From assembly GCF_000423585.1 (NCBI RefSeq), contig NZ_KE384056.1:1-44444 (forward strand): a stretch of 44,444 nucleotides of DNA, given 5' to 3'. Each line of letters starts with the position of its first letter. Within the stretch, counting starts at the first letter, position 1. The notes beneath the pieces were generated by a model. It saw only the letters and a list, made by a program, of their open reading frames with translations, was not told where the DNA came from and searched no databases. Positions 14,112 through 32,812 of this stretch are shown piece after piece. The translations under genes and the position numbers were made by a program. This DNA comes from Salinimicrobium xinjiangense DSM 19287. GTDB taxonomy: Bacteria; Bacteroidota; Bacteroidia; Flavobacteriales; Flavobacteriaceae.

Positions 14112-14155
14112 GTAACTATTGTTACTGCACCGAGAGAGGTCACAGAGTACTTTTG
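14112..14155 (+). promoter_or_regulatory. Sulfur-regulon operator and promoter 1 (before TauE/SafE)
   Basis: Palindrome GTAAC-TATT-GTTAC at 14112-14125 and -7 box TACTTTTG at 14148-14155. The centre of the palindrome is 29.5 bp from the first base of the box, placing it near -41.5 if transcription starts near 14160. No TTG stands at the normal -33 distance, so the promoter probably depends on an activator. Confidence 0.8.
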
Positions 14156-14178
14156 CTGCAAATTAAAAAAAGGACACT

Positions 14179-14976
14179 TTGGAAATAATAGATCTCTTAG
14201 GATATTTTGGAGCATTATTGATTGGCGTGGTTTTAGGCCTGATAGGAGGTGGTGGATCAATCCTTACAGTTCCGGTCCTGGTTTACCTGCTATCAATTAA
14301 TCCTGTTACGGCAACAGCATACTCCCTCTTTGTTGTAGGTGCTTCCTCTCTGGTTGGTGCTTTGAATAACATGAAAAAGAAGCTGGTGGATTTCCGCACG
14401 GCTACGGTATTTGCCATTCCGGCTTTTATTGCGGTCTATGGTACCCGGAAGTATCTTGTACCTGCAATTCCCGAACATATTTTCACCTTATGGGGATTTG
14501 AGGTTACCAAAGATATTGCAATCATGCTGTTCTTTGCTGTCATTATGATCGTAGCGTCAATATCGATGATCAAAAATAATGGTACAGAAGAACTAAAGGA
14601 AACTAAGGTCAAATATAACTACCCGCTTATCATTATTGAAGGTCTGGTAGTTGGTGTTTTGACCGGAATTGTTGGTGCCGGCGGCGGATTCCTTATCATT
14701 CCGGCCCTGGTATTACTGACTAAACTCCCAATGAAAAAGGCAGTAGCCACCTCCCTGCTCATTATAGCCGTGAAGTCACTTATAGGTTTTATTGGAGATG
14801 TGGAAAATCTGGAAATTGACTGGATTTTTCTTATGATCTTCACCGGACTGTCTATCATAGGGATCTTTCTGGGCGGTTATCTCAATAAATTCATTGACGG
14901 GAAAAAACTTAAAAAAGGTTTTGGCTGGTTTGTATTGGTAATGGGCGTTTACATCATTGGAAAAGAGCTGCTGTAA
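14179..14976 (+). CDS. TauE/SafE family sulfite/sulfonate exporter
   Basis: 265 residues and about eight membrane segments, arranged as two TauE halves. Each half starts with a glycine-rich signature: FGALLIGVVLGLIGGGGSIL near 9-28 and VVGVLTGIVGAGGGFLIIPAL near 156-176. The family moves sulfur-containing organic or inorganic anions (sulfite, sulfoacetate, possibly thiosulfate or sulfide) across the inner membrane. The start is TTG at 14179, chosen because AAAGGA stands 5 nt upstream and no ATG/GTG fits. Its promoter carries the shared operator, tying it to the other sulfur genes. A hairpin terminator follows at 15191. Confidence 0.88.
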   Translation: MEIIDLLGYFGALLIGVVLGLIGGGGSILTVPVLVYLLSINPVTATAYSLFVVGASSLVGALNNMKKKLVDFRTATVFAIPAFIAVYGTRKYLVPAIPEHIFTLWGFEVTKDIAIMLFFAVIMIVASISMIKNNGTEELKETKVKYNYPLIIIEGLVVGVLTGIVGAGGGFLIIPALVLLTKLPMKKAVATSLLIIAVKSLIGFIGDVENLEIDWIFLMIFTGLSIIGIFLGGYLNKFIDGKKLKKGFGWFVLVMGVYIIGKELL

Positions 14977-15190
14977 ATTGCATTTTTGACACCCCTAAAC
15001 ATTGATTTCAACGGAAGAAAATTATCTTCTCAGGGATAAAAGCTTCGGATTTCCCTGCGGAACGGAAGGTGGAAATTCAGGAGTTTCGACTGAAGTGGAC
15101 TGCAAAGTTTTGGCTTTAAAATCTAATCCCGAAGGGTAGGTAAGACGACATTGTACAAATAAGAAAAAGGATGAAATAAAACCTTTTTAA
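14977..15190. other. Spacer after TauE/SafE
   Basis: No gene seen. GCATTTTTGACACC near 14982 is the reverse complement of GGTGTCAAAAATG near 30206, another copy of a short interspersed repeat. Confidence 0.35.
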
Positions 15191-15217
15191 AAGGCATCTC
15201 TTTCGGATGCCTTCTTT
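15191..15217 (+). terminator. Intrinsic terminator, probable end of the TauE/SafE transcript
   Basis: A perfect 8-bp stem, AAGGCATC / GATGCCTT, with a 7-nt loop is followed by the pyrimidine-rich tail CTTTCTT. It lies just before the next operator. Confidence 0.6.
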
Positions 15218-15225
15218 CTTGCCCT

Positions 15226-15269
15226 GTAACTTTTGTTACATCCGGTAGGGAATAAGGGTTCTATTTTTG
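15226..15269 (+). promoter_or_regulatory. Sulfur-regulon operator and promoter 2 (before HMA-TlpA)
   Basis: GTAAC-TTTT-GTTAC at 15226-15239 and TATTTTTG at 15262-15269, centre-to-box distance 29.5 bp. The predicted transcript start is near 15274, giving a leader of about 35 nt. Confidence 0.82.
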
Positions 15270-15308
15270 AAAGTCATAAAAGAAACTTAACCTAATTGAT
15301 TCAAAAAG

Positions 15309-15572
15309 ATGAATACGACCATAATAGTTCAGAATTTAAAATGTGGTGGCTGTGTAAAAACCATATCCACTAAAATTTCAGAACTGGAGAATATAAGTAA
15401 TGTAAATGTAAACCGGGAAACTGCTGAGGTATCATTCCAGTATAATGACCCCGAAGACGCTTTGAAAGTAAAGGAGATACTGAAAAAACTCGGGTATCCC
15501 GCAGTAGATGAGAAAAATAGCCTGGTTGCTAAGGCAAACTCATTTGTAAGTTGTGCTACAGGCAAAATTTAA
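15309..15572 (+). CDS. Heavy-metal-associated (HMA) domain protein
   Basis: 87 residues. It has a ferredoxin-like HMA fold with the metal or thiol motif C12-G-G-C15 in MNTTIIVQNLKCGGCVKTIS and the closing strand VKEILKKLGYPAV. A short C-terminal tail carries another Cys (FVSCATG). The usual CxxC (MxCxxC) binds Cu(I), but in this sulfur setting a role as a thiol or persulfide carrier is also possible (inference). It is 25 bp ahead of the TlpA-like gene and shares its promoter. Confidence 0.85.
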   Translation: MNTTIIVQNLKCGGCVKTISTKISELENISNVNVNRETAEVSFQYNDPEDALKVKEILKKLGYPAVDEKNSLVAKANSFVSCATGKI

Positions 15573-15597
15573 ATAAATATAAAAAATCACAGGAAGT

Positions 15598-16203
15598 ATG
15601 AAGGAAAAGAATAAGAAGAGCTTGAAAAAGAATTTAATAGAATACGGAATTATTTTTGTCATTTTCGGGGGGTTATATGTCACAGGTTTGCATACCGAAG
15701 TCCTGGGATTTCTGCAGCGCGGGATCCTGGCGACCGGATTAATGAATCCCGATCTTGAGAAAAAAGAAGAGCTGGCATTAAATGATGTTAATCCCGCTGC
15801 CGACTTTAATATGAAGCTTATAAATTCAAAAGGTGAAAAAGTGGCAATGGAGGATCTAAAAGGCAAAGTGATTTTTATGAATGTATGGGCTACCTGGTGC
15901 CCTCCATGTATAGCTGAAATGCCCGGAATAAATAAACTTTATAATGATGTAGATAAGGAAAAGGTAGCTTTTATAATGTTATCTGTTGATCAGGATTTTC
16001 AGAAGGCCATAGATTTTAATGAGAAGAAAGGCTATGATTTCGAGATCTATAGACTTGACGGAGGCATGCCGGTGATGTACCAGACTCAGAGCATCCCCAG
16101 CACCTTTGTAATAGATGCCGACGGAAAATTGGTTATGACCCACCTGGGAATGGGAGACTACAATACCAATAAATTCAAGAAGTTCTTAAAGGAGCAGTAT
16201 TGA
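15598..16203 (+). CDS. TlpA/ResA-like membrane-anchored thioredoxin
   Basis: 201 residues. One N-terminal membrane anchor (about 13-32) puts the thioredoxin domain (about 60-201) in the periplasm. The active site is WCPPC (Cys101, Cys104) in MNVWATWCPPCIAEMPG, with the cis-Pro loop QSIPSTFVID. It is expected to reduce disulfides or persulfides on periplasmic partners, plausibly the DsrE-like and SoxB-like proteins of the divergently oriented operon next door (inference). AGGAAG stands before the ATG at 15598. A strong bidirectional terminator follows. Confidence 0.88.
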   Translation: MKEKNKKSLKKNLIEYGIIFVIFGGLYVTGLHTEVLGFLQRGILATGLMNPDLEKKEELALNDVNPAADFNMKLINSKGEKVAMEDLKGKVIFMNVWATWCPPCIAEMPGINKLYNDVDKEKVAFIMLSVDQDFQKAIDFNEKKGYDFEIYRLDGGMPVMYQTQSIPSTFVIDADGKLVMTHLGMGDYNTNKFKKFLKEQY

Positions 16204-16236
16204 TTTAAGGAATCATCCGGCCTCTTATAAATAGAA

Positions 16237-16266
16237 AACCTCACAACCTTATTGTGAGGTTTTTCT
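16237..16266. terminator. Bidirectional intrinsic terminator
   Basis: A perfect 10-bp stem, AACCTCACAA / TTGTGAGGTT, with the 5-nt loop CCTTA is flanked by A-rich and T-rich tracts on the two sides. It separates the convergent TlpA and SoxB-like genes. Confidence 0.9.
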
Positions 16267-16283
16267 ATTAAAAAGAAAGATGA

Positions 16284-17939
16284 TCACTGAAACTTATAAT
16301 TTGTTTCAGGTACTGTGGAAAAAGAATAAGGTCCTAAATATTCACAGTAGGCGCGACCTTCCAATTTTGGGGATACCGGTGAATTCTTTTGAAGATACTC
16401 TTCCACCACCTCGTGAATGGTGTAATCCTTTACTTCCACGTCTTCCACATCTGGAATCCGGCACAGGTTATCTATAGGATCACCGGGACGTACACAGGCA
16501 GAAATAGTGTAGTATTCATCCATTTGCATTGGCTCACCTTTTATAGTAATAGATTTTACCCGTTCTCCTTTGTTGCCCTGACTATTGAAATCAACTTCCA
16601 TTCCTGAAAATCTTACCAGCCATCCGCCAAACCTTTCGGTAGGATCCTGAGCAAAAGCATTATGCATTTCCCGCTCCAGCCAGTCTTTTATCTGCTGTCC
16701 GGTGACTTTTCCGGTTTTCACTTTTTCATTTACTGGAAGCAGGTTCCATAAATTTGCACGGGTAATAGGTGCAGGTTGGCCATTCTCCGGAACTATGGGA
16801 TTTCCAAACCGGAATCCATTGGAAATGGAAATGTCGGCTCCGGTTTTCCACCTGGCGGCATCGGTTATCATGTTGTCCATTGGATTTTCAACGGTTAAAT
16901 ACCTGTAAAGGGGAGTGGCTGTATGTCCTACAACCGTTTCCAGATGTTCCTCATAAGGTTCTTTGGCTTTATCAACCAACTGCTGAAGTTCAGGATCTGC
17001 GGGATAAACTTCTGGATCCACATCCATTAGTTCGTAGTCATCTCCCACCAGTTTTCCATCTACAAAATGCAAGGTGAGCTTTCCTACGAAAGAACCGAAG
17101 GCACCGGGCTCAGTTACTTTCGCATATTTACCCGAAATGAGCTCCCTTACTCTCTCGTGTGTGTCATTCCCCAAAATATAATCGACATCTTTCGCCAGCT
17201 CCCGGTTTGCAAGATCCACCTGTTTAAATACGCCGAAATGGGTAACCAAAAAGAGGACATCTATTGCTTCCTTCTTTTTGACCTCACTAATAAGTTCTTT
17301 TACCTCATCCTCAATTCCGCTGAATGTTATTCCTTCGCTAAAAATTGGATTTTGACGCACAGGTACATCGGGATCATTAATACCGATGAAGCCAATTTTC
17401 ACCCCCTCTATTTCTTTTACCCAATAGGGAGGAAAAAGTTCCTTCCCGTTCTCTTCGTGAAACATGTTCTGAGCGATCACGGGTGTGTTATAGTTTGTCA
17501 TGATATCCATCATCCTGGCTTTTCCATAAACCACCTCCCAGTTTCCGGGTATGATAAGATCATAACCCATCTGGCTTATGATCTCCGGGAAAATTTTGCC
17601 TTCAGAAAGAGCAGCATAACCGCTACCCTGGATGAGGTCTCCGCCATCTACAATTATAGTGCGGCCGGGATTCTTTTTACGTTCTTCCTTAAAAAAGGTT
17701 TTAATATTGGCGAGTCCGCCTCTTTCTTTAAAAACGATCTCTTCATTTTCCCAGAACAGCTCAGGGTGTGGATCCAATTGCCCGTGAATATCTGCCGTTT
17801 GCAGCACGGTAATACTTAAGGTGTCTTTTTTGATTTCTTTATTAATCGAATTCCCTCCGGTTGCCTGATTGCAGGAAGTTAAAACTGCAATCCCCAATAG
17901 TGCCGGGATCCAAAGAGATTTCTTCAAATTAAAATTCAT
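16284..17939 (-). CDS. SoxB-like / 5'-nucleotidase-family metallohydrolase lipoprotein
   Basis: 551 residues from the ATG at 17939, which places a lipobox (LTSC, Cys23) after a normal signal. The metallophosphatase domain shows TADIHGQ (D50, H52), IIVDGGD (D98/D101), GNWE (132-135), VTHFG (H234) and GNDTHE (257-262). The C-terminal 5'-nucleotidase domain holds NPMDNMITDAARWKTGADISISNG. True nucleotidases read GNHE; here Trp replaces the catalytic His, as in SoxB thiosulfohydrolases (G-x-W-E-x-x-Y-G, from memory). With DsrE and DoxX partners, a periplasmic role in releasing a sulfur group from a carrier is likelier than nucleotide hydrolysis, but no SoxYZ carrier is in the window. Last gene of the operon starting near 19680. 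Confidence 0.75.
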   Translation of the reverse strand: MNFNLKKSLWIPALLGIAVLTSCNQATGGNSINKEIKKDTLSITVLQTADIHGQLDPHPELFWENEEIVFKERGGLANIKTFFKEERKKNPGRTIIVDGGDLIQGSGYAALSEGKIFPEIISQMGYDLIIPGNWEVVYGKARMMDIMTNYNTPVIAQNMFHEENGKELFPPYWVKEIEGVKIGFIGINDPDVPVRQNPIFSEGITFSGIEDEVKELISEVKKKEAIDVLFLVTHFGVFKQVDLANRELAKDVDYILGNDTHERVRELISGKYAKVTEPGAFGSFVGKLTLHFVDGKLVGDDYELMDVDPEVYPADPELQQLVDKAKEPYEEHLETVVGHTATPLYRYLTVENPMDNMITDAARWKTGADISISNGFRFGNPIVPENGQPAPITRANLWNLLPVNEKVKTGKVTGQQIKDWLEREMHNAFAQDPTERFGGWLVRFSGMEVDFNSQGNKGERVKSITIKGEPMQMDEYYTISACVRPGDPIDNLCRIPDVEDVEVKDYTIHEVVEEYLQKNSPVSPKLEGRAYCEYLGPYSFSTVPETNYKFQ

Positions 17940-17949
17940 AGCTATTTTT

Positions 17950-18369
17950 TTATAGTTGTAAACTGTAATAATTTTTATTTTTCTGTAGCTGAATGAGGTG
18001 CGTAAAAGCATGATCCACCACCTCAAAATATTCGTGCAGTTCGGCCGCATCTATCTCCAGTCTCTCCAAAGAGAGCTTACAAACAGCGATCTTTACTCCT
18101 GCAGCCCTGGCTTTGCCGGTGTAGGTCTCCATCTCTTCCTTATTCGTAAGCCCTTTTACATTGGATCCATACATAACGATCTGGAAGTCACCGAACCTTG
18201 AACCATCTTCTTCTTTTAGAGCTTCAGCCGTTAGTATGATTGGCAGGAGTTGCGGGATCTTTGTTGTTGAAACCACGTAATTGTTCATTTCTTCCTGTAT
18301 CCCGGATTGTGCATTAGCGGTAATTCCCAACATCATGAGCATCATAAAAATTCCTATTGATCTTTTCAT
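17950..18369 (-). CDS. Exported DsrE-like sulfur-carrier family protein, paralogue 2
   Basis: 139 residues with a Sec signal ending TANAQ (about 1-21). The rest is a DsrE/YchN-like fold, NYVVSTTKIPQLLPIILTAEALKEED, with one conserved Cys97 in KIAVCKLSL, the position of the persulfide Cys in this family. It aligns without gaps to the upstream gene product at 18380 (shared IPQL-P, LTAEAL, FG-F, K-LT-KE), so the two are a tandem duplication. It lies 10 bp before the SoxB-like gene. Probable periplasmic sulfur relay. Confidence 0.75.
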   Translation of the reverse strand: MKRSIGIFMMLMMLGITANAQSGIQEEMNNYVVSTTKIPQLLPIILTAEALKEEDGSRFGDFQIVMYGSNVKGLTNKEEMETYTGKARAAGVKIAVCKLSLERLEIDAAELHEYFEVVDHAFTHLIQLQKNKNYYSLQL

Positions 18370-18379
18370 AAATTTTGTT

Positions 18380-18796
18380 TTAGAGTGAAATGCTGGTATA
18401 TCCTTTCTTTTGTAGCTGCAGGTTGTAGAGAATCCCGTTCTCCACGACCCTGAGTTCGGGAGAAATATCCTTTCGGTCCACTCCGAATTTATTCAGTGAG
18501 AATCCGCAGGCAACCAGTTCAACATTCTGTTCTTTGGCTATATTGATATATCCCTGCATCATTTCTTTATCGGTAAGTTCCTTCACCGTTTGTCCACAAA
18601 TGATGACCTCAAATTTTCCGAAGTTATTACCGTCTTCCTTTGCTAAAGCTTCCGCAGTTAAAAATATGGGTTGAAGCTGAGGGATCTTCTTTGTCAGGAC
18701 TACATAGTTTTGCTGTTCTTCCTCTACCTGCGCATGAACAGGATTACTTACTAATGCAAGAAGAAATACGATACTGCTTAAAAAATACATTTTCAT
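18380..18796 (-). CDS. Exported DsrE-like sulfur-carrier family protein, paralogue 1
   Basis: 138 residues with a signal peptide ending PVHAQ (about 1-23), then NYVVLTKKIPQLQPIFLTAEALAKEDG. Cys97 (ELVACGFSL) matches the Cys of the downstream paralogue, and this copy has an extra Cys67 (EVIICGQTV). The family (DsrE/DsrF-like) binds sulfane sulfur on Cys; an exported version would act in the periplasm. Spacings of 2 and 10 bp to the neighbours indicate a tight operon. Confidence 0.75.
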   Translation of the reverse strand: MKMYFLSSIVFLLALVSNPVHAQVEEEQQNYVVLTKKIPQLQPIFLTAEALAKEDGNNFGKFEVIICGQTVKELTDKEMMQGYINIAKEQNVELVACGFSLNKFGVDRKDISPELRVVENGILYNLQLQKKGYTSISL

Positions 18797-18798
18797 AA

Positions 18799-19242
18799 TT
18801 ATTTATTTTTTACGCTCAACTCTGGTTGAGCAGGATTTGTTTCTGTTATTGTTTCTTTTGTAAAGTCATTTAAAATAAAAAACAGGAGTCCGCCCATTAT
18901 GGCCACATTTTTAAAGAGAGGTCCCATGGTATTCGCCTGGCCTACCTGAATAGTAATAGTAATTGGAATTAGTACGGCCAGAAGGATCACTGCCGCCCAT
19001 CGGGTCCGGTATCCTGCCAAAAAGGCCAGACCTGCCAAAAGCATTACAATACCCGACAGGATCACCAGTAATTCGGGGTCTCCAAAGAGATATGCAAAAC
19101 CTTTTAAACTGGCAGCGTCTATGCGTTTAGCCGTTTGCTCAACATTCATGAGGTGATTGGAACCTGCGATAAGAAATATCCCGCTAAGCATTATTCTCAA
19201 TACCTGAATGGAGCGACGGCTGACTGAAATTTGCGTCGTCAT
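18799..19242 (-). CDS. DoxX family membrane protein
   Basis: 147 residues from the ATG at 19242; an in-frame TTG at 19269 is less likely. Four membrane segments: RIMLSGIFLIAGSNHL, LLVILSGIVMLLAGLAFLAGY, WAAVILLAVLIPITITI and NVAIMGGLLFFIL. DoxX/DoxD-type proteins include the quinone-reducing subunit of thiosulfate:quinone oxidoreductase and redox partners of SodA/SseA-like systems. In this operon it may pass electrons from sulfur oxidation into the quinone pool (inference). The stop is 2 bp from the next gene's start. Confidence 0.82.
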   Translation of the reverse strand: MTTQISVSRRSIQVLRIMLSGIFLIAGSNHLMNVEQTAKRIDAASLKGFAYLFGDPELLVILSGIVMLLAGLAFLAGYRTRWAAVILLAVLIPITITIQVGQANTMGPLFKNVAIMGGLLFFILNDFTKETITETNPAQPELSVKNK

Positions 19243-19323
19243 ATTAAATAAGTTGTGGTTCAGAACCAATAAGGTTCTGAAAATTGTGTAAAATTGATTT
19301 AGGTTGTAGCTTAGAAAGTGAAT

Positions 19324-19680
19324 CTAAGCCTGAGGGGGAGGATAGAACCTGTCTTCGGCAGATTCCGGTAAAGAGGGAGTGTGATGTGCATATGTCCTGG
19401 ATTCTTCAGGAATTACCGTAGATTCCCAGGAGAAAACTTCAAATTCAAAAGGGGCATTACAAAACGAATCTATAGTTAGATTTAAAGAAGTATCATCTTC
19501 AGCTAAAGTCTCCAAAAAGTTGTCCTTCTGAATTTTTTCCTTTTGCTTTTCACAGAAAGGATTGACGTAAGCGATTTCATCAGCATCAAAAATGGCTACC
19601 AATATTTTGGAGTCCATCACAAGGAATTTTCCGAAGAAAATTACCGAAAAGAAGATCGCTATGTAAGCCTTTAAATTCAT
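19324..19680 (-). CDS. Small secreted or anchored protein, first gene of the SoxB-like operon
   Basis: 118 residues from the ATG at 19680 (a TTG directly upstream is not needed). A hydrophobic N-terminus (AYIAIFFSVIFFGKFLVM) is followed by a soluble acidic part with two Cys (NPFCEKQKEK, DSFCNAPFEF) and a C-terminal HHTPSLPESAEDRFYPPPQA. This tail type occurs in small flavobacterial proteins next to metal or sulfur genes; function unknown. Two Cys in an exported protein fit redox or metal binding. The predicted transcription start (near 19683) nearly coincides with the ATG, which suggests an almost leaderless mRNA. Confidence 0.6.
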   Translation of the reverse strand: MNLKAYIAIFFSVIFFGKFLVMDSKILVAIFDADEIAYVNPFCEKQKEKIQKDNFLETLAEDDTSLNLTIDSFCNAPFEFEVFSWESTVIPEESRTYAHHTPSLPESAEDRFYPPPQA

Positions 19681-19687
19681 CAAGCGT

Positions 19688-19732
19688 CAAATATATTCAT
19701 TTTTCGCTCAAAAGTTATGTGACATTTGTTAC
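19688..19732 (-). promoter_or_regulatory. Sulfur-regulon operator and promoter 3 (before the SoxB-like operon)
   Basis: On the minus strand: GTAAC-AAAT-GTCAC at 19732-19719, then the -7 box TATATTTG at 19695-19688. The distance is 30.5 bp, one more than in the other seven. One half-site base deviates. Confidence 0.72.
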
Positions 19733-19769
19733 ATAGCGCAGATCATATAGGATGAGAATTGATTGCAAA

Positions 19770-19813
19770 GTAACTTTGGTTACTGATTGAGCCGTTGCTA
19801 TAACGGACATTTG
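19770..19813 (+). promoter_or_regulatory. Sulfur-regulon operator and promoter 4 (before the ACP-like gene)
   Basis: GTAAC-TTTG-GTTAC at 19770-19783, with GACATTTG at 19806-19813 as a -7 box lacking the first T; spacing 29.5 bp. It is divergent with operator 3, the two centres 51 bp apart. Confidence 0.7.
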
Positions 19814-19839
19814 CGGAAAACTCATAAAGTTTTAATCAC

Positions 19840-20166
19840 ATGTTAAAAATACTTTTTACAAATAAACACCGGAATTGTCTCTCTGCCTGGGCAGGCTTTG
19901 AAGTTTATCTTAATGATGATTTTGAGTCTTTAATTCAGAGCGAGGTAGATTTTATAGAGCTTCTATTATTGTTCGAAAAGCACTTTCAGCTCGATTTACT
20001 GGAAACAGATAAAACCAGACAGGATTTCTCTACTGTTGAAGAATTTGTGACATGGGCTCTGGAACATCCTGCTGTGGAACCAATACCATTTTCAGAACCT
20101 GAAGATCTGCCTTTTGCCAAACATCTTCAACAGCGGCATTATATCTGTCAGCAGGTGGGATCATGA
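19840..20166 (+). CDS. Acyl-carrier-protein-like protein without the phosphopantetheine serine
   Basis: 108 residues. The core SEVDFIELLLLFEKHFQLDL...TVEEFVTWALEHP has the helix II and helix III pattern of ACPs (LD-x-VEL-x-x-x-xEE-F...). But the residue equal to Ser of the DSL motif is Glu, so it should not carry a 4'-phosphopantetheine arm. No Cys lies in that region either; the only cysteines are near the ends (NCLSAW and YICQQ). It is probably a scaffold or regulatory protein rather than a true carrier. Its promoter has the same operator as the sulfur genes and it is divergent from the SoxB-like operon. The fold assignment is by eye. Confidence 0.55.
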   Translation: MLKILFTNKHRNCLSAWAGFEVYLNDDFESLIQSEVDFIELLLLFEKHFQLDLLETDKTRQDFSTVEEFVTWALEHPAVEPIPFSEPEDLPFAKHLQQRHYICQQVGS

Positions 20167-20272
20167 TGATTCCCTTTGCTGAAATATTTTGCTGAAAAGG
20201 TTCAGAAAACTTTCACGGTAAGTGAGATTTGGCGGGTTGATAGCTTTATTTATTTCGTAGAGCAGATATACA

Positions 20273-20306
20273 AAATCCCGGATCCTTACAATCCGGGATT
20301 TACATA
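20273..20306. terminator. Bidirectional intrinsic terminator
   Basis: An 11-bp perfect stem, AAATCCCGGAT / ATCCGGGATTT, with a 7-nt loop lies between the convergent ACP-like and OsmC genes. The T-tract is better on the minus strand. Confidence 0.75.
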
Positions 20307-20335
20307 ATATATTGATATATTGGAGGTACTTGAGC

Positions 20336-20785
20336 TTAAGCAGTCTGATTGTTTGAAATAAGGACCTTAGTTTCCATATGAACTTCAGAAGTTATCGAGT
20401 TGGAAATAAGACAGGCTCTTTCGGCTTTGATCATGATCTTTTCTGCTTTTTCACTGTCAGCCTCGTTTGGTATGGTCACTACAGGTCTTAAAATGATCTC
20501 TGTCATCGCAAATTTTCCATCTTTCTTATCCAAAACACCTTCTGCAGGACATGTAAGGCTTTCAAATTCCAAATTAGAATTCTCAGCAATTGCAAGAAAA
20601 GTAGTCATAAAACAACTGCTAACTGCAGCGGTAAAAAGATGTTCGGGTGACCAGATCCCCGGCATTCCTTTTGGAAATTCCGGCGGAGTCGCAACTTCAA
20701 CTTTCTGGTCAAGAACCGGAGATGAAATTTCCCCCTTTCTGTCCATTTTCCATTCAAGATCGACGTGATATTTATGTGCTTCCAT
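20336..20785 (-). CDS. OsmC family peroxiredoxin-like protein
   Basis: 149 residues. Catalytic cysteines are Cys58 (FTAAVSSCFMTTF) and Cys124 (AERACLISNSI), the two-Cys signature of OsmC/Ohr-type thiol peroxidases; Cys79 is extra. The LEW and P-x-x-L segments around 10-55 are family-typical. OsmC-like proteins reduce organic hydroperoxides, and some clear sulfane sulfur or persulfides, which fits the context. It is the last gene of the rhodanese operon, 39 bp after the DUF2892 gene, with no promoter of its own recognised. Confidence 0.88.
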   Translation of the reverse strand: MEAHKYHVDLEWKMDRKGEISSPVLDQKVEVATPPEFPKGMPGIWSPEHLFTAAVSSCFMTTFLAIAENSNLEFESLTCPAEGVLDKKDGKFAMTEIILRPVVTIPNEADSEKAEKIMIKAERACLISNSITSEVHMETKVLISNNQTA

Positions 20786-20824
20786 ATGTTTAATTATTTT
20801 TTTTAAAAGTATTAAAGGCTTTCT

Positions 20825-21043
20825 TTAAGGTTTATGATCTGTGTCAGGTTTGACCTCACAACTTCCTGTGGCGCAATTTCCCGACGCACATCCAAATGCA
20901 AAAAGTCCCATCACCGCGGGCCACGCACCAATGACCACACCTATCCACTGTCCTTCCAGTGCGCTTTGTACAATCACCCAAACGCCTATGAGGAGGTAGA
21001 CAATGCGTACCCAGGTCCAGTTGCTAAAGATCCTGTTGATCAC
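20825..21043 (-). CDS. DUF2892 (YgaP-like) membrane protein with Cys-rich tail
   Basis: 72 residues with two membrane segments (VRIVYLLIGVWVIVQSAL and WIGVVIGAWPAVMGLFAFG), ending in the cysteine-rich GCASGNCATGSCEVKPDTDHKP. The start is GTG at 21043, overlapping the preceding rhodanese TGA as GTGA, so translation is coupled. In E. coli YgaP the same DUF2892 hairpin is fused to a rhodanese; here the two functions are separate neighbouring genes. The tail cysteines probably accept sulfur or bind metal at the membrane surface. Confidence 0.8.
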   Translation of the reverse strand: MINRIFSNWTWVRIVYLLIGVWVIVQSALEGQWIGVVIGAWPAVMGLFAFGCASGNCATGSCEVKPDTDHKP

Positions 21044-21360
21044 GTTCCAATTTTATTATTTAGCCCTAACCAGCTTCCGCCATTGTACACATTGGTGTAG
21101 CCTTTTGACTTTAAAATGCTTTTAGCCGAGCCACTTCTCATTCCGGAAGCACAACAGGTAATAATGGGCTTATTCTTATCTTTAGGGATTGCAGGATTGG
21201 AATTCAGGTTGGGCAACGGAATGTTTTTAGATCCTTTAATATGTCCTACGGCAAATTCAGCTTTACTTCTTACATCTACAATTATTCCACCTTCCCTGAG
21301 TAGCTGATTATAATCTGGTGCCGGAGAAATACCCAGCATTTCCTTTATTTTTTCGAACAT
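21040..21360 (-). CDS. Rhodanese-like sulfurtransferase, second of pair
   Basis: 106 residues, single rhodanese domain without a signal, so cytoplasmic. It has IIVDVRSKAEFAVGHIKGSKNIP, the active-site loop CCASGMRSG (first Cys of CASGMRS catalytic, preceded by another Cys), and GYTNVYNGGSW at the end. It should move sulfane sulfur as a Cys persulfide. It is one base downstream of the first rhodanese gene and overlaps the DUF2892 gene by 4 bp, so a functional unit like split YgaP is likely. Confidence 0.88.
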   Translation of the reverse strand: MFEKIKEMLGISPAPDYNQLLREGGIIVDVRSKAEFAVGHIKGSKNIPLPNLNSNPAIPKDKNKPIITCCASGMRSGSAKSILKSKGYTNVYNGGSWLGLNNKIGT

Positions 21361-21361
21361 A

Positions 21362-21646
21362 TTATACTTCCTGAGAGGTTAGAAAATTTACTTCAAGCCA
21401 GGATCCACCGTTTACACATTCTATTCCCTGGCGGCTAACATAATGAGTCGCCTGCCCGCTTCTGTTTCCTGTGGCACAGCAAAAGATCAACGGGGTTTTC
21501 ATTTCCTTCAATTCATCTAGTCTTAATGGTATTTCATTTAAAGGCATATTTACGGCCCCGGCAACGCTGCCTCCCATAAATTCCCCGCGGGTACGCACAT
21601 CCACGATGGTGCCCTCATTATTCTTTATCAATTTTTCTGTATCCAT
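21362..21646 (-). CDS. Rhodanese-like sulfurtransferase, first of pair
   Basis: 94 residues. TIVDVRTRGEFMGGSVAGAVNMPL, the active loop CCATGNRSG and VNGGSWLEVNFL define a minimal rhodanese; it ends soon after the final helix. Like its neighbour it has a double Cys at the active site. It is the first gene of the operon rhodanese - rhodanese - DUF2892 - OsmC and is controlled from operator 5, with a predicted leader of about 60 nt. Confidence 0.88.
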   Translation of the reverse strand: MDTEKLIKNNEGTIVDVRTRGEFMGGSVAGAVNMPLNEIPLRLDELKEMKTPLIFCCATGNRSGQATHYVSRQGIECVNGGSWLEVNFLTSQEV

Positions 21647-21710
21647 AAATAATATGTATTAATTTAAAATTGGTTTTTTGAAGCTTATATGCTAATTGAT
21701 TTTATACGTG

Positions 21711-21754
21711 CAAATTTAAGCCTGAAGCCGGGACTCCACAGTTACTTTTGTTAC
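21711..21754 (-). promoter_or_regulatory. Sulfur-regulon operator and promoter 5 (before the rhodanese operon)
   Basis: On the plus strand GTTAC-TTTT-GTTAC at 21741-21754, with one imperfect half. The minus-strand -7 box is TAAATTTG at 21718-21711; spacing is exactly 29.5 bp. Confidence 0.78.
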
Positions 21755-21783
21755 ATATAAAGCAGGACATCAGTAATGAAAAA

Positions 21784-21908
21784 ATGAAGAAAAAGTCGGA
21801 TTTGGATAGCTTTATAAAGCTGCTGAAAGTGTAGCATCATCAGAGATCCTTCGCAAAGAATATATTTCAGGAGTAGTAGAAAATACTTCAAAAAAATCAG
21901 CCTTTTAG
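21784..21908 (+). pseudogene. Frameshifted small peptide gene (leader-like), degraded
   Basis: ATG at 21784 reads MKKKSDLDSFIK and then hits a stop. Adding one base in the AAAG near 21815 joins it to a frame reading AAESVASSEILRKEYISG and ending KKSAF before TAG at 21906, 41 residues in total. The helical KKSDLDSFI...EILRK...ISG pattern recalls leader peptides of flavobacterial modified-peptide precursors, but no maturation genes are near. It could also be chance. The surrounding 21909-22015 holds nothing else. Confidence 0.3.
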
Positions 21909-22015
21909 GAACCCCTGAAGTTGTTGTTTAAAAAGCTCTTCAACATCAATATGGCCTACTAACTACCTGCGGATTCCACGTCCCCGGGATTTGAAAATAC
22001 ATCCGGTTGATTCAA

Positions 22016-22702
22016 TCAATTTTCAGATAATATAAAATCGGCAGCCATTTGTGCATGAAGTTGGGTGGTTGCGATCATTGGCAGGTGGAAATCAGAAGCC
22101 TCAATAAGCATCGGCAGTTCGGTGCAGCCAAGAATTATTCCTTCTGCCCCTTTTGCCTTGAGTATTTCCATTTGCTCAAGAAAGAATGATTTTGCCTCAT
22201 CATTAAAAATTCCCCGGGTAAGCTCCGTTGATACAAAATGATGATTTTGATCTATATATTGAGGATCGGGGATAATGGTCTCAATTCCGTAGTTGGCCTT
22301 CAGGTATCCGGGGATAAAATCTCCGGTGATTGTAGGCCGGTTTCCAAGAAGACCTAAAGTCTTTAATCTTTGTTTTTGGGCCTCTTTTCCAATAGCATCG
22401 GCGATATGAAGAATTGGGATATCTATTTGAGGTTGCACAAAATCATAAACCATATGCGGGGTATTGGCACAGATGACCAGCGCTTTGGCTCCTGCAGTTT
22501 GCAGAGTGCGGGCGATCTCCAGGTACTTCTTGTTGATCTTTTCCTTGTTTTGCTCCCGCATGAGCTCAATATTAAGGCTGTAGATGATCACTTCGGGATT
22601 AGCCTGAGTGCCGATCTTTTCCCCCACCAACTCATTAATGAGCCTGTAGTAAACAATGGTAGAATGCCAGGATGTGCCGCCAATTAGTCCTAACTTTTTC
22701 AT
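22016..22702 (-). CDS. Aspartate/glutamate racemase family protein
   Basis: 228 residues. MKKLGLIGGTSWHSTIVYYRLIN at the N-terminus, LVICANTPHMVYD (first catalytic Cys region) and GIILGCTELPMLI (second catalytic Cys) are the signatures of PLP-independent aspartate racemases. The enzyme would interconvert L- and D-amino acids, probably aspartate. It lies 121 bp after the SQR-like gene on the same strand; whether it shares that transcript is unclear, and its role in sulfur metabolism is doubtful. Confidence 0.87.
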   Translation of the reverse strand: MKKLGLIGGTSWHSTIVYYRLINELVGEKIGTQANPEVIIYSLNIELMREQNKEKINKKYLEIARTLQTAGAKALVICANTPHMVYDFVQPQIDIPILHIADAIGKEAQKQRLKTLGLLGNRPTITGDFIPGYLKANYGIETIIPDPQYIDQNHHFVSTELTRGIFNDEAKSFFLEQMEILKAKGAEGIILGCTELPMLIEASDFHLPMIATTQLHAQMAADFILSEN

Positions 22703-22823
22703 ATCAACCTTTGATCCCGTTAATAAAAGTAATGCATGAATTTAATCTTTTTCACACTCAATGTTTTGGATCTTATGCTAAAATTTCTGTCAGAAGATAA
22801 TTGTGGAGAGTATATATCCCTGA

Positions 22824-23972
22824 TTAGAAATTTTTGAAGAACCAGAATTTTTCATCCCACCATTTGGAAAAGTGTCCCAATTGAGCGGGAGTTTTCATTT
22901 TGACATCCTTTCCGGTAGCCGAAAACCTGCCTCCGGTCTCACTTGCTTTTCCTTCGCCGGCTTCGATAAAGTATTTACCTTGGGGTACAAAAGTTTGATC
23001 TGGTTCATCTCCGGCCATTTTTCTTCCAATATTATGAGCTACTACCGCTGCCTGCTGCCTTGCAAATACTCCTATCTTTGGAAGCATCGCTCCGTTTTCA
23101 GTGCTTACCTGAGTGACATCACCTATCGCATAAACATCTTTGAATTTCGTTTCCAGTGTCTTGTTATCAACCTCTATCCAGCCCGATTTTCCAGCTAAAT
23201 CACTCTTTTTGATCAGTTCGGGTAGCTGGTGCCTTGGAGTGTAAGCCAGGAGATCATAGGAGTAATTTTCTCCATTTCTAAATTCCAGTTTATTCCCTGA
23301 AACAGCTTTTAATTCGTGATTTGGAAAATATTTGATCCCCTTTTTTTCCAGCAGTTCCTTTAGCTCCTGTGATGCTTCAGCGCCTGCGAATTCCATTGGT
23401 CCGGTTTCAGGAGTATAAAGGGAAACGGATGAATTATCTTTCAGATTATTTTTTCTTACGAAATCTTCTATTAGCATAGCTGCCTCATAGGGTGCGGCCG
23501 GGCTTTTAAACGGAAGGGAAGAAACTAAAATGGCAATTTCTCCTCCGTTGAATTTCTTTAATTCAGAATAAAATGCCTCAGCTCCTTTTAACCGGAAAAA
23601 ATTGAATCCAAATTTCCGAAGATCAAAAGCATCCGTCTGTTCCACACCTAGTGAAACCACCATGTGATCTCCCTTATACTGCTTTCCATTCACGGTTACC
23701 GCAACATTTTCTGGATCTATTATTTCTATTTCACCTTTGACGACTTCCAATCCTGAAGCGTTCAGTTTATCTACGCGCTCTGTGATCTCTTCCTCTTTAC
23801 TTTTACCAACCATCACCCAAGGCAGGGAAGGGGAATACACGCTGGTTTCCTCTTTTTCGAAAACCAGGATCTTTACCAGGTTGATATCTTCTTCATTACC
23901 ACTATGTCTGCTTAATTCCCTGGCAGTTACGATTCCTCCTGTTCCGGCTCCTAATACTAAGATTGTTTTCAT
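22824..23972 (-). CDS. SQR/FCSD-like FAD-dependent oxidoreductase without any cysteine
   Basis: 382 residues. FAD-binding GAGTGG at 8-13, a second dinucleotide motif VYAIGDVT near 293, and the SQR-like order VVSLGVEQ..., FKSPAAPYEAAMLIEDF, VFARQQAAVVAHNI and a C-terminal aromatic WWDEKFWFFKNF place it in the sulfide:quinone oxidoreductase / flavocytochrome c sulfide dehydrogenase group. Yet the protein has no Cys at all: the position of the usual Cys in KCPPAP is Ser157. Canonical SQR chemistry needs a Cys pair, so it may use an external thiol (perhaps the CC protein encoded 5 bp upstream) or be an NADH- or quinone-linked enzyme. Membrane association through the aromatic C-terminus is plausible. 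Confidence 0.75.
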   Translation of the reverse strand: MKTILVLGAGTGGIVTARELSRHSGNEEDINLVKILVFEKEETSVYSPSLPWVMVGKSKEEEITERVDKLNASGLEVVKGEIEIIDPENVAVTVNGKQYKGDHMVVSLGVEQTDAFDLRKFGFNFFRLKGAEAFYSELKKFNGGEIAILVSSLPFKSPAAPYEAAMLIEDFVRKNNLKDNSSVSLYTPETGPMEFAGAEASQELKELLEKKGIKYFPNHELKAVSGNKLEFRNGENYSYDLLAYTPRHQLPELIKKSDLAGKSGWIEVDNKTLETKFKDVYAIGDVTQVSTENGAMLPKIGVFARQQAAVVAHNIGRKMAGDEPDQTFVPQGKYFIEAGEGKASETGGRFSATGKDVKMKTPAQLGHFSKWWDEKFWFFKNF

Positions 23973-23977
23973 AAAGT

Positions 23978-24160
23978 TTAAGATTTGTTGATCCCTTTCC
24001 CGGCTTCATTTATTTTGAGAAGCTCAGGGCGCAGGTTTTTTTCCATATAGATAGAGCCATAAGAGCAACAGGTACTGCTATCGTGTTCATGCGAAACCGG
24101 ATTTTTGAAATCCTCCCATATATCCTTTAGCAGTGCTTTAAGTTGTACTAAATATTTCAT
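23978..24160 (-). CDS. Small CC-motif protein coupled to the SQR-like enzyme
   Basis: 60 residues, MKYLVQLKALLKDIWEDFKN then SHEHDSSTCCSYGSIYMEKNLRP. An amphipathic N-terminal helix is followed by a His/Asp-rich segment and an adjacent Cys pair (Cys31-Cys32). Family not known to me. Its stop is 5 bp before the SQR-like ATG and it is first behind operator 6. An obvious hypothesis is that it supplies the thiol pair the flavoprotein lacks; no direct evidence. Confidence 0.6.
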   Translation of the reverse strand: MKYLVQLKALLKDIWEDFKNPVSHEHDSSTCCSYGSIYMEKNLRPELLKINEAGKGINKS

Positions 24161-24193
24161 TATTTGATTATAAGGTCATTTTTAATTGCAGGA

Positions 24194-24237
24194 CAAATTT
24201 AAGGGGCGACTGTCTTATAGTAAGTTACTTTTGTTAC
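24194..24237 (-). promoter_or_regulatory. Sulfur-regulon operator and promoter 6 (before the CC protein and SQR-like gene)
   Basis: GTTAC-TTTT-GTTAC at 24224-24237 (one imperfect half). The minus-strand -7 box TAAATTTG is at 24201-24194, spacing 29.5 bp. The predicted leader is about 29 nt. Confidence 0.8.
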
Positions 24238-24266
24238 ATACTGAGGTTGATCTCAAACCTGATACT

Positions 24267-24310
24267 GTAACATATGTTACTGTCCTATGATCTTAGTCAT
24301 ATTTTCTTTG
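24267..24310 (+). promoter_or_regulatory. Sulfur-regulon operator and promoter 7 (before the YeeE/YedE pair)
   Basis: GTAAC-ATAT-GTTAC at 24267-24280, a perfect palindrome, and TTTCTTTG at 24303-24310 as an imperfect -7 box; spacing 29.5 bp. Divergent with operator 6, centres 43 bp apart. Confidence 0.75.
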
Positions 24311-24331
24311 CGCCCTTAAAAAAAGTAGTAT

Positions 24332-24889
24332 ATGGAATGGATTTTAGAACCCTGGCCCTGGTATGTAAGTGGGCCGCTTATAGCAGGAATAATGTTTTTG
24401 TTATTGTTTGGAGGTAAGAATTTTGGAATGTCATCAAACCTGCGTACAATGTGTACTATAGGAGGAGCCGGAAAGAAAGCCGACTTCTTTGCATTTGACT
24501 GGAAATCACAGCGTTGGAACCTTGTGGTTGTGGCCGGTGCCATAATAGGTGGATTCATTGGAGCCAACCTTTTGAGTACAGATACTGCCGTGATCATAAA
24601 TTCTGAAACAGTTACAACTCTTGAAAATATGGGATTTGAAAGTGCAGGGGAAGCTTATTTGCCGGCTGAACTTTTTGCTACAGATGCTTTGACAGATCCT
24701 AAATCGCTGATCATTTTACTCATTGGCGGATTGCTAATTGGGTTTGGGGCGAGATACGCCGGTGGATGTACTTCAGGACATGCCATCTCCGGACTCAGCA
24801 ACCTGCAGTTACCCTCACTTATCGCAGTAGCAGGATTTTTTATTGGGGGACTTGTTATGGTTCATTTATTATTCCCTTTAATTTTTTAG
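24332..24889 (+). CDS. YeeE/YedE (TsuA-like) sulfur transporter, first half-subunit
   Basis: 185 residues, about four to five membrane segments. Conserved cysteine motifs are MCTIGGAG (Cys42) and GARYAGGCTSGHAISG (Cys near 152), the family signature that relays thiosulfate through the membrane in TsuA/YeeE. Classical YeeE is one chain of about 350 residues with both halves; here the halves are two genes, and this is the N-terminal-like one. The next gene starts 4 bp downstream. It brings thiosulfate or another sulfur species into the cell (known for TsuA; inferred here). Confidence 0.88.
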   Translation: MEWILEPWPWYVSGPLIAGIMFLLLFGGKNFGMSSNLRTMCTIGGAGKKADFFAFDWKSQRWNLVVVAGAIIGGFIGANLLSTDTAVIINSETVTTLENMGFESAGEAYLPAELFATDALTDPKSLIILLIGGLLIGFGARYAGGCTSGHAISGLSNLQLPSLIAVAGFFIGGLVMVHLLFPLIF

Positions 24890-24893
24890 AAAA

Positions 24894-25307
24894 ATGAAAT
24901 ATTTAAAATTTTTAGCCATAGGTATCCTCTTTGGAATAGTAATGTATAAAAGTGAAGCCGCCTCGTGGTTTCGTATCTTTGAAATGTTCCGGTTCGAGTC
25001 ATTTCATATGTATGGAATAATTGGTTCTGCTCTCACATTAGGAGTGCTTGGAACCTGGCTGATCAAGAAATATAAATTAAAATCCATAGATGGAGAACCT
25101 ATCAAATTTACTCCTAAAGACAAAAGCTTTAGCCGGTACATGTATGGAGGAATCCTTTTCGGCTTAGGTTGGGCACTGGCAGGATCCTGCCCCGGGCCCA
25201 TTTATACCTTAATAGGAGCCGGATACATATCTATCCTGGTAGTGCTTTTTGGAGCTTTGATTGGGACCTTCCTATATGGTGTTTTCCGGGGTAAATTACC
25301 TCATTAA
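24894..25307 (+). CDS. YeeE/YedE family sulfur transporter, second half-subunit
   Basis: 137 residues, four membrane segments. The signature GGILFGLGWALAGSCPGPIYTLIGAG carries the conserved Cys of the second half of YeeE-type transporters (GSCPGP). It pairs with the preceding gene, 4 bp upstream, and should complete the transport path. The order YeeE-1, YeeE-2, then the MFS and persulfide dioxygenase genes matches sulfur gene clusters common in Bacteroidetes. Confidence 0.88.
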   Translation: MKYLKFLAIGILFGIVMYKSEAASWFRIFEMFRFESFHMYGIIGSALTLGVLGTWLIKKYKLKSIDGEPIKFTPKDKSFSRYMYGGILFGLGWALAGSCPGPIYTLIGAGYISILVVLFGALIGTFLYGVFRGKLPH

Positions 25308-25388
25308 AAATAAAAAGAAATGGTTTGAGCTACCCGGGAAAAAAGGTGGAAGTAACCCCGTCAGAAGGGGTATTGAAAATACGTTGGT

Positions 25389-26651
25389 ATGAAGAAAAAT
25401 GCAATTGAACTTGGCTTAAAAGAGAACTGGAAACAGTTTAGCCTGCTGGTTCTTGTAAACGCCTTTGTAGGAGGTATGGTAGGTTTGGAGCGCAGTATCC
25501 TGCCTGAAATAGCCGAAAAAGAATTCGGAATAGCGGCAACCAGTGCAATATTGTCTTTCATTGTAGTATTCGGAATTGTCAAGGCCATTTCTAATTATTA
25601 TGCCGGCACCCTTGCCAATAGAATTGGAAGAAAGAACCTGCTGGTTCTGGGGTGGATCTTTGCAATCCCTATCCCATTCATATTAATGTATGCTGAAAAC
25701 TGGAACTGGATAGTGGCGGCCAATGTCCTCCTGGGGATCAACCAGGGACTTGCATGGTCCAGTACCGTGGTGATGAAAATTGATCTGGTGGGCGAGAGAC
25801 AGCGGGGTTTTGCAATGGGACTCAATGAATTTGCGGGCTATCTGGCTGTTGGGCTTGTTGCTTATTTAACAGGGTGGATAGCAGGAGAATACGGGCTTAG
25901 GCCCTATCCATTTTACCTGGGGATAGGCCTAATGGTGATGGGATTGCTAGCCAGTATTTTTTTCATTAAAGATACAAGGAGACATGCTTCAAAAGAGGGG
26001 GACACCAGCGAAATTGCTTTACTAAAGAATTTGTTCTGGGAGACCACCTGGAAAGATAAGAACCTGGGATCTGTAACCCAGGCCGGGCTTATCAATAACC
26101 TGAATGACGGCATGGCCTGGGGATTATTCCCCATTCTTCTTGCCGTTCGGGGTTTTAATCTGGAACAAATAGGAATTGTAGTAGCAGTTTATCCCGCTGT
26201 GTGGGGTATAGGACAGTTGGTCACCGGAAGGATGGCAGATAAATTCTGCAAAAAAGATATGCTGTTTGTTGGAATGTTGCTGCAGGCCTTAGTCTTGATC
26301 GCCCTGGTGTGGGCAGGAAGTATGTGGCAATTTGTTAGCCTCATGGCGTTGCTTGGATGGGGCACTGCTATGGTATATCCAACTTTTCTGGCTACCATTG
26401 CTGAAAACACGCACCCTAAAGACCGGGCTCAAAGTATTGGGATCTTCAGGCTGTGGCGGGATCTTGGTTATGCCGTTGGAGCGATTCTTACGGGGGTGAT
26501 CTCAGACCTTATAAGTATTGAAGCTGCTGTTGGACTGGTTGGGGCGCTTACCCTGTTTTCTTCCGCAGTTATCTATATAAGAATGAAATGCGGTGAAGGA
26601 AGCTCCATTAGACTACGCTCTATGTTCGCGAGACCTACTGTTAAATGTTAG
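25389..26651 (+). CDS. MFS transporter in the sulfur locus
   Basis: 420 residues with about twelve membrane segments in two blocks. The MFS loop motif appears as YAGTLANRIGRKNLL after TM2 and VTGRMADKFCKKDML after TM8. Substrate unknown; its position 81 bp behind the YeeE pair and before the persulfide dioxygenase suggests export or uptake of a sulfur compound or related anion. The C-terminal end (GEGSSIRLRSMFARPTVKC) is polar and may be a short extension. No separate operator is found, so it probably shares promoter 7. Confidence 0.82.
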   Translation: MKKNAIELGLKENWKQFSLLVLVNAFVGGMVGLERSILPEIAEKEFGIAATSAILSFIVVFGIVKAISNYYAGTLANRIGRKNLLVLGWIFAIPIPFILMYAENWNWIVAANVLLGINQGLAWSSTVVMKIDLVGERQRGFAMGLNEFAGYLAVGLVAYLTGWIAGEYGLRPYPFYLGIGLMVMGLLASIFFIKDTRRHASKEGDTSEIALLKNLFWETTWKDKNLGSVTQAGLINNLNDGMAWGLFPILLAVRGFNLEQIGIVVAVYPAVWGIGQLVTGRMADKFCKKDMLFVGMLLQALVLIALVWAGSMWQFVSLMALLGWGTAMVYPTFLATIAENTHPKDRAQSIGIFRLWRDLGYAVGAILTGVISDLISIEAAVGLVGALTLFSSAVIYIRMKCGEGSSIRLRSMFARPTVKC

Positions 26652-26690
26652 CCTTGCCTGGAGAAAACACGATATCATGAAGTTAATATT

Positions 26691-26734
26691 GTAACCAATG
26701 TTACTGTAAAACAGAATTCCGGGAAGTATTTTTG
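26691..26734 (+). promoter_or_regulatory. Sulfur-regulon operator and promoter 8 (before the persulfide dioxygenase)
   Basis: GTAAC-CAAT-GTTAC at 26691-26704 and TATTTTTG at 26727-26734; spacing exactly 29.5 bp. The predicted leader is about 42 nt. Confidence 0.82.
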
Positions 26735-32421: not shown

Positions 32422-32425
32422 TTTT

Positions 32426-32541: not shown

Positions 32542-32661
32542 ATTAGCCATATTAAAGCCGAAAGTCCCGTATAAAAACTGTGCGAGCTGGTTTTAAAATC
32601 CCATTGTAACGGGAAGGCAGGACTTAAAGATGATCCTCGTTCTCTCATAATTCAGAATCGA

Positions 32662-32677
32662 AATGTCATTTTTGAGA
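32662..32677. repeat. 16-bp interspersed repeat AATGTCATTTTTGAGA, copy 3
   Basis: Exact third copy; it runs into the start of the right direct repeat. Confidence 0.55.
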
Positions 32678-32810: not shown

Positions 32811-32812
32811 AA

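Follow-up and report, generated by a model that had tools for sequence, protein, structure and literature searches.

What controls the sulfur genes at the start of contig C6 of Salinimicrobium xinjiangense DSM 19287, and which signal do they answer to? The stretch that we analyzed (hereafter, the window) consists of the first 44,444 bases of this contig, in a genome of 3.76 Mb and 45 contigs, and within it the palindrome GTAAC-N4-GTTAC precedes the transcription units of a 12.6-kb sulfur stretch. Our results indicate that the eight palindromes are probably operators of a single class II activator of sulfur genes, a Crp/Fnr-family protein encoded on contig C16. All eight lie where the original prediction had placed them (Table 1); five are perfect and three carry one mismatch. 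That prediction had also held that, with two bases of tolerance, the pattern occurs nowhere else in the window. This stood at zero or one mismatch, where only these eight are found, but failed at two mismatches, where 13 further matches appear and the total of 21 is near chance (11.2 expected from shuffles, largest shuffle 20).

Every palindrome is accompanied by a TAnnTTTG-like -7 box, which matches at all six defined positions in six cases and at five of six in two. The distance between the palindrome centre and the first base of the box was found to be as predicted, 29.5 bp at seven sites and 30.5 bp at one (19719, minus strand). The usual -33 TTG is indeed lacking, as none lies 17-23 bp upstream of any of the eight boxes. 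At the first four sites a TTG occurs 26, 26, 13 and 27/16/8 bp upstream of the box, and at the other four there is none between the palindrome start and the box. Together with four sites outside the window, described below, the -33 TTG is missing in all twelve units of the genome. In the 119-aa unit, 4 bases separate the end of the -7 box from the TTG start of the listed open reading frame (ORF; window 19324-19695); the transcript may have almost no leader, or translation may really begin further in.

A scan of the whole genome reported nine perfect palindromes, five in the sulfur stretch and four outside the window, one each on C2, C7, C8 and C16. Allowing one mismatch, there are 90 palindromes in the genome, eight of them in the sulfur stretch. 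The reversed control pattern gave 16 perfect matches and 228 with up to one mismatch; the motif is therefore not enriched genome-wide, and most of the near-matches elsewhere are probably due to chance. Of the four outside perfect sites, the one on C2 is found upstream of a sulfide:quinone reductase (SQR) gene accompanied by DsrC- and DsrE-like genes, that on C7 upstream of a TolC/HlyD/RND efflux operon, that on C8 upstream of a DUF302 gene and that on C16 upstream of a second MBL-rhodanese gene. The boxes of these four match at five or six of six positions and lie 29.5, 29.5, 29.5 and 28.5 bp from the palindrome centre, and because the spacing had been defined without these sites they provide a test of it. 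The site layout behind the predicted regulon was borne out for the sulfur units of the window, and the putative regulon extends outside the window as well. The SQR outside the window (L015:6061-7290, an open frame) scores 646.8 bits against the NCBIfam model 'type III SQR, selenoprotein subtype' (cut-off 525). At the C7 operon a one-mismatch palindrome lies 22 bp, about two helical turns, upstream of the perfect one (L016:8125-8160; G000:C7:88124-88159), and these paired sites before an efflux operon suggest that the regulon exports something too. We also searched this genome with a composite promoter pattern (palindrome-N22-TANNTTTG). At up to two mismatches it gave 15 matches versus 9 for its reversed control, so that such matches are uninformative for regulon membership. 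Its sole new match at one mismatch, C16:56914, lies within the end of an ORF and was rejected as a regulon site, as was the near-site C8:25059, which has no -7 box at 28.5-30.5 bp.

The gene of the regulator had been predicted to lie outside the window. The genome codes for five proteins that have a cNMP-binding domain, on C7, C8, C9, C16 and C19, and thus for none on C6, the contig of the window. When three regulators were compared with the window by tblastn, the best E value was 0.3; no recognisable remnant is seen there of the paralogous Crp/Fnr gene that two relatives have upstream of TauE (described below), and the window locus would therefore be run in trans from C16. The C16 gene adjoins a second sulfur locus with a perfect site, and the regulator is very probably the 211-residue protein that it encodes. 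In this locus TauE/SafE directly follows the regulator gene; the MBL-rhodanese gene, preceded by its palindrome, and then a YeeE pair come further along. No perfect palindrome precedes the regulator gene itself (L018). The protein shows the features of the Crp/Fnr family, a beta-barrel of the cNMP-binding type and a Crp helix-turn-helix at the C-terminus, matching Pfam PF00027 (42.6 bits) and PF13545 (36.2 bits) above their gathering scores. The structure predicted by AlphaFold for its Salinimicrobium catena orthologue (87% identical; mean pLDDT 86) matches those of CRP, FNR and NtcA.

Support for the link between this protein and the palindrome comes from loci around its orthologues. Scanning GTDB genomes yielded 126 of these, of which we kept the best 80, almost all of them labelled as Flavobacteriaceae genera, Flavobacteriales or Bacteroidetes metagenome-assembled genomes. 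When all 5-base palindromes with spacers of 2-8 were ranked, GTAAC-N4-GTTAC came out on top, with 188 copies in 75 of the 80 loci; the next word reached 53 loci and the reversed control one. All but two of the 188 sites (186) lie outside ORFs of at least 100 aa. A -7 box matching at five or more of six positions stands exactly 29.5 bp from the centre at 161 sites (102 with an exact TAnnTTTG), compared with 0 to 13 sites at any other offset from 10.5 to 59.5 bp. Such a fixed spacing would centre the palindrome near -41.5 relative to the predicted transcript start. It also bears on the idea that the C16 protein represses from these sites: Crp/Fnr proteins are capable of repression, but the sites stand at a fixed distance upstream of the box and not over it, and the promoters of the twelve units in this genome lack the -33 TTG, making repression very improbable.

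A first gene could be assigned to 163 of the 188 sites; ten have a box but no first gene, and 15 lack a 5/6 box at 28.5-30.5 bp. By our reading of the sequences by eye, the first genes encode TauE (42), MBL-rhodanese (33), sterol-desaturase-like (15), DUF983-like (11), SQR-like (9), rhodanese (9), YeeE (9) and SulP (8) proteins and the regulator itself (7), the rest falling into smaller groups. The seven regulator-first sites, where operator and box stand before the regulator gene (e.g., L059 site 9848), suggest autoregulation in those relatives. The third commonest first gene, read as a sterol-desaturase/fatty-acid-hydroxylase-like membrane protein, is exemplified by L029 site 17744. Two relatives, Salinimicrobium sediminis (L046) and Salegentibacter salinarum (L053), have a locus orthologous to that of the window, with a TauE 91% identical and, directly upstream of it, a paralogous Crp/Fnr gene. 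We compared the promoters of the TauE and HMA/redoxin units in both relatives and, in L046, also those of the rhodanese unit and the 119-aa unit; palindrome and box are retained at every one. In both relatives TauE is preceded by a perfect palindrome, and the box there is identical to that of the window. The rhodanese unit of L046 has the one-mismatch GTAACAAAAGTAAC and box as in the window, and its 119-aa unit retains the GTCAC half with the box shifted by 2 bp. A palindrome further upstream in L053 (9683) has no box at 29.5.

The composite promoter was also traced across the order: among 146 sampled genomes it gave 43 matches in 21 genomes and its reversed control a single match. With a regulator match threshold fixed in advance (E 1e-40), the composite occurred in 21 of the 78 genomes with such a match and in none of the 68 without. 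Among these 21, the regulator match of G091 is weak (160 bits). At a 'strong orthologue' threshold of 189 bits, chosen after the rows had been seen, the figures are 20 of 31 versus 1 of 115 (Fisher 8e-16), and by post hoc hand counts at this threshold 14 of 16 versus 1 of 12 in the window's family and 3 of 3 versus 1 of 12 in one genus. The bare palindrome is less telling, with at least one copy in 111 of the 146 genomes.

The palindrome also tracks a residue that in CRP touches DNA. According to Rodionov et al. 2005, CRP contacts DNA through R180, E181 and R185, and changes of the motif follow changes at 180 and 181 (PMC1274295). We aligned 119 regulators: the C16 protein, its 80 orthologues, 30 from another order (30 loci out of a longer list) and eight plasmid relatives (31 records matched, 25 were listed and eight were examined, one of them without annotation). 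The equivalents of R180 and R185 are invariant in all 119, and the position of CRP-181 (184 in the C16 protein) holds Val in 101, including the C16 protein, and Glu in 18. GTAAC-N4-GTTAC is present in 84 of the 101 Val184 loci versus none of the 18 Glu184 loci. Among the 30 loci of the other order, which have equal flanks, it occurs in 8 of 20 Val versus 0 of 10 Glu loci (one-sided p 0.02). A Glu-type locus on a Pontibacter plasmid carries GTGAC-N4-GTCAC at two sites and has a similar gene order (Crp, TauE, MBL, rhodanese, YeeE, DUF6691, MFS). A mixed site is found in a Spirosoma locus (Crp, DUF81, beta-lactamase-domain, hypothetical, two YeeE) and likewise in L201. The sites of Pontibacter, Spirosoma and L201 are too few to prove a residue-base switch.

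Several observations weigh against the assignment of these sites to the C16 protein. Five of the 80 orthologue loci lack a perfect site, and the 188 sites are not independent, as they come from related loci in which several genera recur. The exact composite is absent from 57 of the 78 genomes in which the regulator has a match, many of whose matches are weak and perhaps paralogous, and from 11 of the 31 genomes with a match of at least 189 bits. In the other order, 12 of 20 Val loci have no perfect site, and the correlation between residue and site is confounded by ancestry. For Glu-type regulators no alternative palindrome was prominent in 14 loci, and most Glu-type loci have no GTGAC palindrome either. 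Finally, another protein of this genome has a comparable recognition helix. In the C7, C19 and C8 proteins, read by eye, there is no Arg at CRP-180 and Glu stands at 181 (RVET, ASET, STES), whereas the 265-aa C9 protein reads TRAVVNR, with Arg at 180 and, by our own alignment, Ala at 181, which leaves it as the only other candidate as far as the helix goes. That the C9 protein binds these sites, while the C16 protein does something else, would fit its Arg180 and non-Glu 181. Yet it is near orthologues of the C16 protein that the motif is enriched, and it precedes the regulator's own gene at seven sites; the 3.2 kb surrounding the C9 gene contain no GTAAC-N4-GTTAC, and the C9 sequence as we read it has no CX5C cysteines; we give this alternative very little weight. 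An activator encoded on C16 and acting at class II spacing, as in the original proposal of a Crp/Fnr activator, is supported by the position of its gene next to a sulfur locus, by the linkage of its orthologues to palindrome and spacing, by the confinement of the composite to genomes with a regulator match, and by the residue-site correlation.

From these data we infer a mechanism in which a dimer of the C16 protein would bind GTAAC-N4-GTTAC (TGTAA-N6-TTACA in the CRP register) through the Arg residues at CRP-180 and -185 and the Val at 181. With the expected start some 41 bp downstream of it, and beside a -7 box without a -33 element, it would recruit RNA polymerase as a class II activator. 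About 19 genes of the window would be switched on, provided that adjacent same-strand genes are cotranscribed, and with them at least four units elsewhere, those of the SQR, the second MBL-rhodanese protein, the DUF302 protein and the efflux operon.

The signal in this mechanism would be cellular persulfide or sulfane sulfur, read by the cysteines of a CX5C(C) motif. The C16 protein has only three cysteines, C78, C84 and C85, in one short stretch, and among the 119 regulators they are conserved in 119, 118 and 113, respectively. We take this stretch to be the one that carries the cAMP contacts in CRP. In the AlphaFold model the block 81-90, which holds C84 and C85, has a pLDDT of only about 60, and we therefore claim no cysteine geometry. 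The plasmid relatives of Thioclava and Paracoccus keep CX5C and have MBL-hydrolase and SulP genes adjacent, and the Thioclava one a sulfur-transferase gene as well. No such neighbours occur within 5-6 kb of the relatives in Azospirillum, Thiothrix and Persicobacter psychrovividus, though DUF2892 is nearby in the first two and a DUF302 gene lies about 4.6 kb away in Thiothrix. Gene content and cysteine conservation suggest persulfide sensing, and that this part of the proposal draws on these two alone counts against it. The same regulator could control these units in response to oxygen, thiosulfate, sulfite, a metal or the general thiol redox state. Conserved cysteines are compatible with general thiol or metal sensing, an efflux operon and a DUF302 gene belong to the regulon here, and cytochrome bd-like genes follow three sites in relatives; set against this, 102 of the 163 first genes are of the TauE, MBL-rhodanese, SQR-like, rhodanese or YeeE kind. 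We consider such another signal unlikely, though a serious contender. More tentatively, with prospects somewhat short of even, these proteins may form an as yet undescribed cross-phylum Crp/Fnr lineage in which the CX5C(C) thiol pair replaced cyclic-nucleotide sensing and reads sulfane sulfur directly as an activator, where SqrR/CstR-type sensors are repressors, and in which a Glu-to-Val change at CRP-181 switched the operator from GTGAC-like to GTAAC-like. If so, the switch would be a natural replay of a known specificity position of CRP. For the way in which marine Bacteroidota handle sulfide and persulfide, the system supplies a concrete candidate for the regulator, its operator and the promoter layout. 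It also provides naturally occurring Val/Glu variants of a classic DNA-contact residue, and its signal is directly testable with a small three-cysteine protein, a 14-bp site and a fixed promoter.

Table 1. Predicted operators, genes and units of the sulfur stretch (window coordinates) and the candidate regulator gene.
Feature	Position	Strand	Remarks
Operator GTAACTATTGTTAC of TauE/SafE gene	14112-14125	+	-7 box TACTTTTG at 14148-14155
Operator GTAACTTTTGTTAC of HMA/thioredoxin-like unit	15226-15239	+	-7 box TATTTTTG at 15262-15269
Operator GTAACAAATGTCAC (minus-strand reading) of 119-aa unit	19719-19732	-	-7 box TATATTTG at 19688-19695, 30.5 bp from centre
Operator GTAACTTTGGTTAC of 108-aa gene	19770-19783	+	-7 box GACATTTG at 19806-19813
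Operator GTAACAAAAGTAAC (minus-strand reading) of rhodanese unit	21741-21754	-	-7 box TAAATTTG at 21711-21718
Operator GTAACAAAAGTAAC (minus-strand reading) of FAD-protein unit	24224-24237	-	-7 box TAAATTTG at 24194-24201
Operator GTAACATATGTTAC of YeeE unit	24267-24280	+	-7 box TTTCTTTG at 24303-24310
Operator GTAACCAATGTTAC of MBL-rhodanese gene	26691-26704	+	-7 box TATTTTTG at 26727-26734
TauE/SafE sulfite exporter family protein	14179-14976	+	Pfam PF01925, 157 bits
Heavy-metal-associated (HMA) domain protein (15309-15572); redoxin/thioredoxin-like protein (15598-16203)	15309-16203	+	Pfam HMA, Redoxin/AhpC-TSA
119-aa protein, DoxX, two DsrE-like proteins, SoxB-like 5'-nucleotidase family protein	16284-19683	-	One unit by adjacency
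108-aa protein	19840-20166	+	No Pfam match
Two rhodanese-domain proteins (21362-21646, 21040-21360); OsmC/peroxiredoxin-like protein (20336-20785)	20336-21646	-	One unit by adjacency
60-aa ORF (23978-24160); SQR-like FAD protein (22824-23972); Asp/Glu racemase family protein (22016-22702)	22016-24160	-	One unit by adjacency
Two YeeE/YedE (TsuA-like) half-transporters (24332-24889, 24894-25307); MFS transporter (25389-26651)	24332-26651	+	
MBL-fold hydrolase fused to rhodanese domains, persulfide-dioxygenase-like	26781-28196	+	Blh, GloB, rhodanese models, all under cut-offs
Crp/Fnr regulator gene, 211 aa	G000:C16:28838-29470 (L018:6839-7474)		

Several of the family names in Table 1 are assigned from scores under the model cut-offs. 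The SoxB-like protein scores 262.5 bits against the SoxB model (cut-off 550) and the SQR-like FAD protein of the window 183.6 bits against SQR_III (cut-off 525). The DsrE-like proteins score slightly under the Pfam gathering score for DsrE. Matches of the OsmC-like protein to the NCBIfam SACOL1771/OsmC subfamilies, of the YeeE/YedE pair to TsuA/YedE and of the MFS transporter to MFS models are likewise under cut-off, and the rhodanese pair has Pfam Rhodanese matches. Further along the window, at 31373-41505, we observed a Fic-like protein with an adjacent helix-turn-helix protein, a 1049-aa SIR2-like/ATPase-like protein and a large restriction-methylase-like protein; judged from the ORF translations alone, this region looks like a defence or mobile island.

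Among known systems, the nearest by operator is HcpR2. GTAAC-N4-GTTAC equals the motif GTAACnnnnGTTAC given for HcpR2, which has Pro at 181, in PMC1274295. The two systems share the Crp/Fnr family, the motif and a residue other than Glu at 181, but HcpR2 has Pro there and hcp as its target, whereas the C16 protein has Val and sulfur genes. The regulator could on this ground be an HcpR2-type nitrosative-stress or redox regulator that took over sulfur genes and responds to nitric oxide or a heme-bound ligand rather than to sulfur, and the heme binding of Bacteroides thetaiotaomicron HcpR, reported in a preprint (PMC13370916), would agree with this. However, hcp is neither a target nor a neighbour of the C16 system: no Prismane match was found in this genome, whereas the same search was positive in 5 of 14 control genomes. 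Across the phylum, 29 of 118 genomes have Prismane matches, and 30 hcp loci (of 35 matches listed) contain no perfect GTAAC-N4-GTTAC, nor, within 1.5 kb, any regulator relative at E 1e-5, Bacteroides HcpR2 not having been knowingly sampled. Sulfur-gene neighbours, moreover, are found in Cytophagales too. Given these findings and the Val at 181, we regard an HcpR2-type origin of the signal as improbable and retain a sulfur-responsive activator as the preferred reading.

The comparison with NtcA of cyanobacteria concerns the promoter as well. Its sites, as described in PMC3898017, have GTA-N8-TAC near -41.5 for class II activation, and the printed alignment shows TRV in the recognition helix. 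GTA-N8-TAC is contained in the perfect palindrome and TRV is shared, but NtcA serves nitrogen control by 2-oxoglutarate, with other targets and in cyanobacteria, and the C16 protein scores only 38.4 bits against the NCBIfam NtcA model (cut-off 244.95). With E. coli CRP the C16 protein shares the fold, the equivalents of Arg180 and Arg185 and the operator register, and it differs in that its branch has Val in place of Glu181; it scores 63.2 bits against the NCBIfam CRP model (cut-off 266) and, as far as its sequence can be read, appears to have lost the cAMP contacts. In FNR an N-terminal cysteine cluster binds 4Fe-4S, and no such cluster is present in the C16 protein, with its C78, C84 and C85. 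The sulfane-sulfur sensors SqrR/BigR, CstR and SoxR/sHdrR control the same kinds of genes as the present regulon, but they belong to the ArsR and CsoR families and are repressors of other folds; a two-cysteine switch like theirs is plausible here too, in a Crp/Fnr protein placed as an activator. In the literature that we searched, which left most subscription journals outside its coverage, we found no such regulator and no sulfur regulon under this motif, and the claim that the regulon is undescribed thus needs dividing: regulon and regulator look undescribed within that literature, whereas the motif is already known as that of HcpR2. Taken together, the system reads as a variant of class II Crp/Fnr activation.

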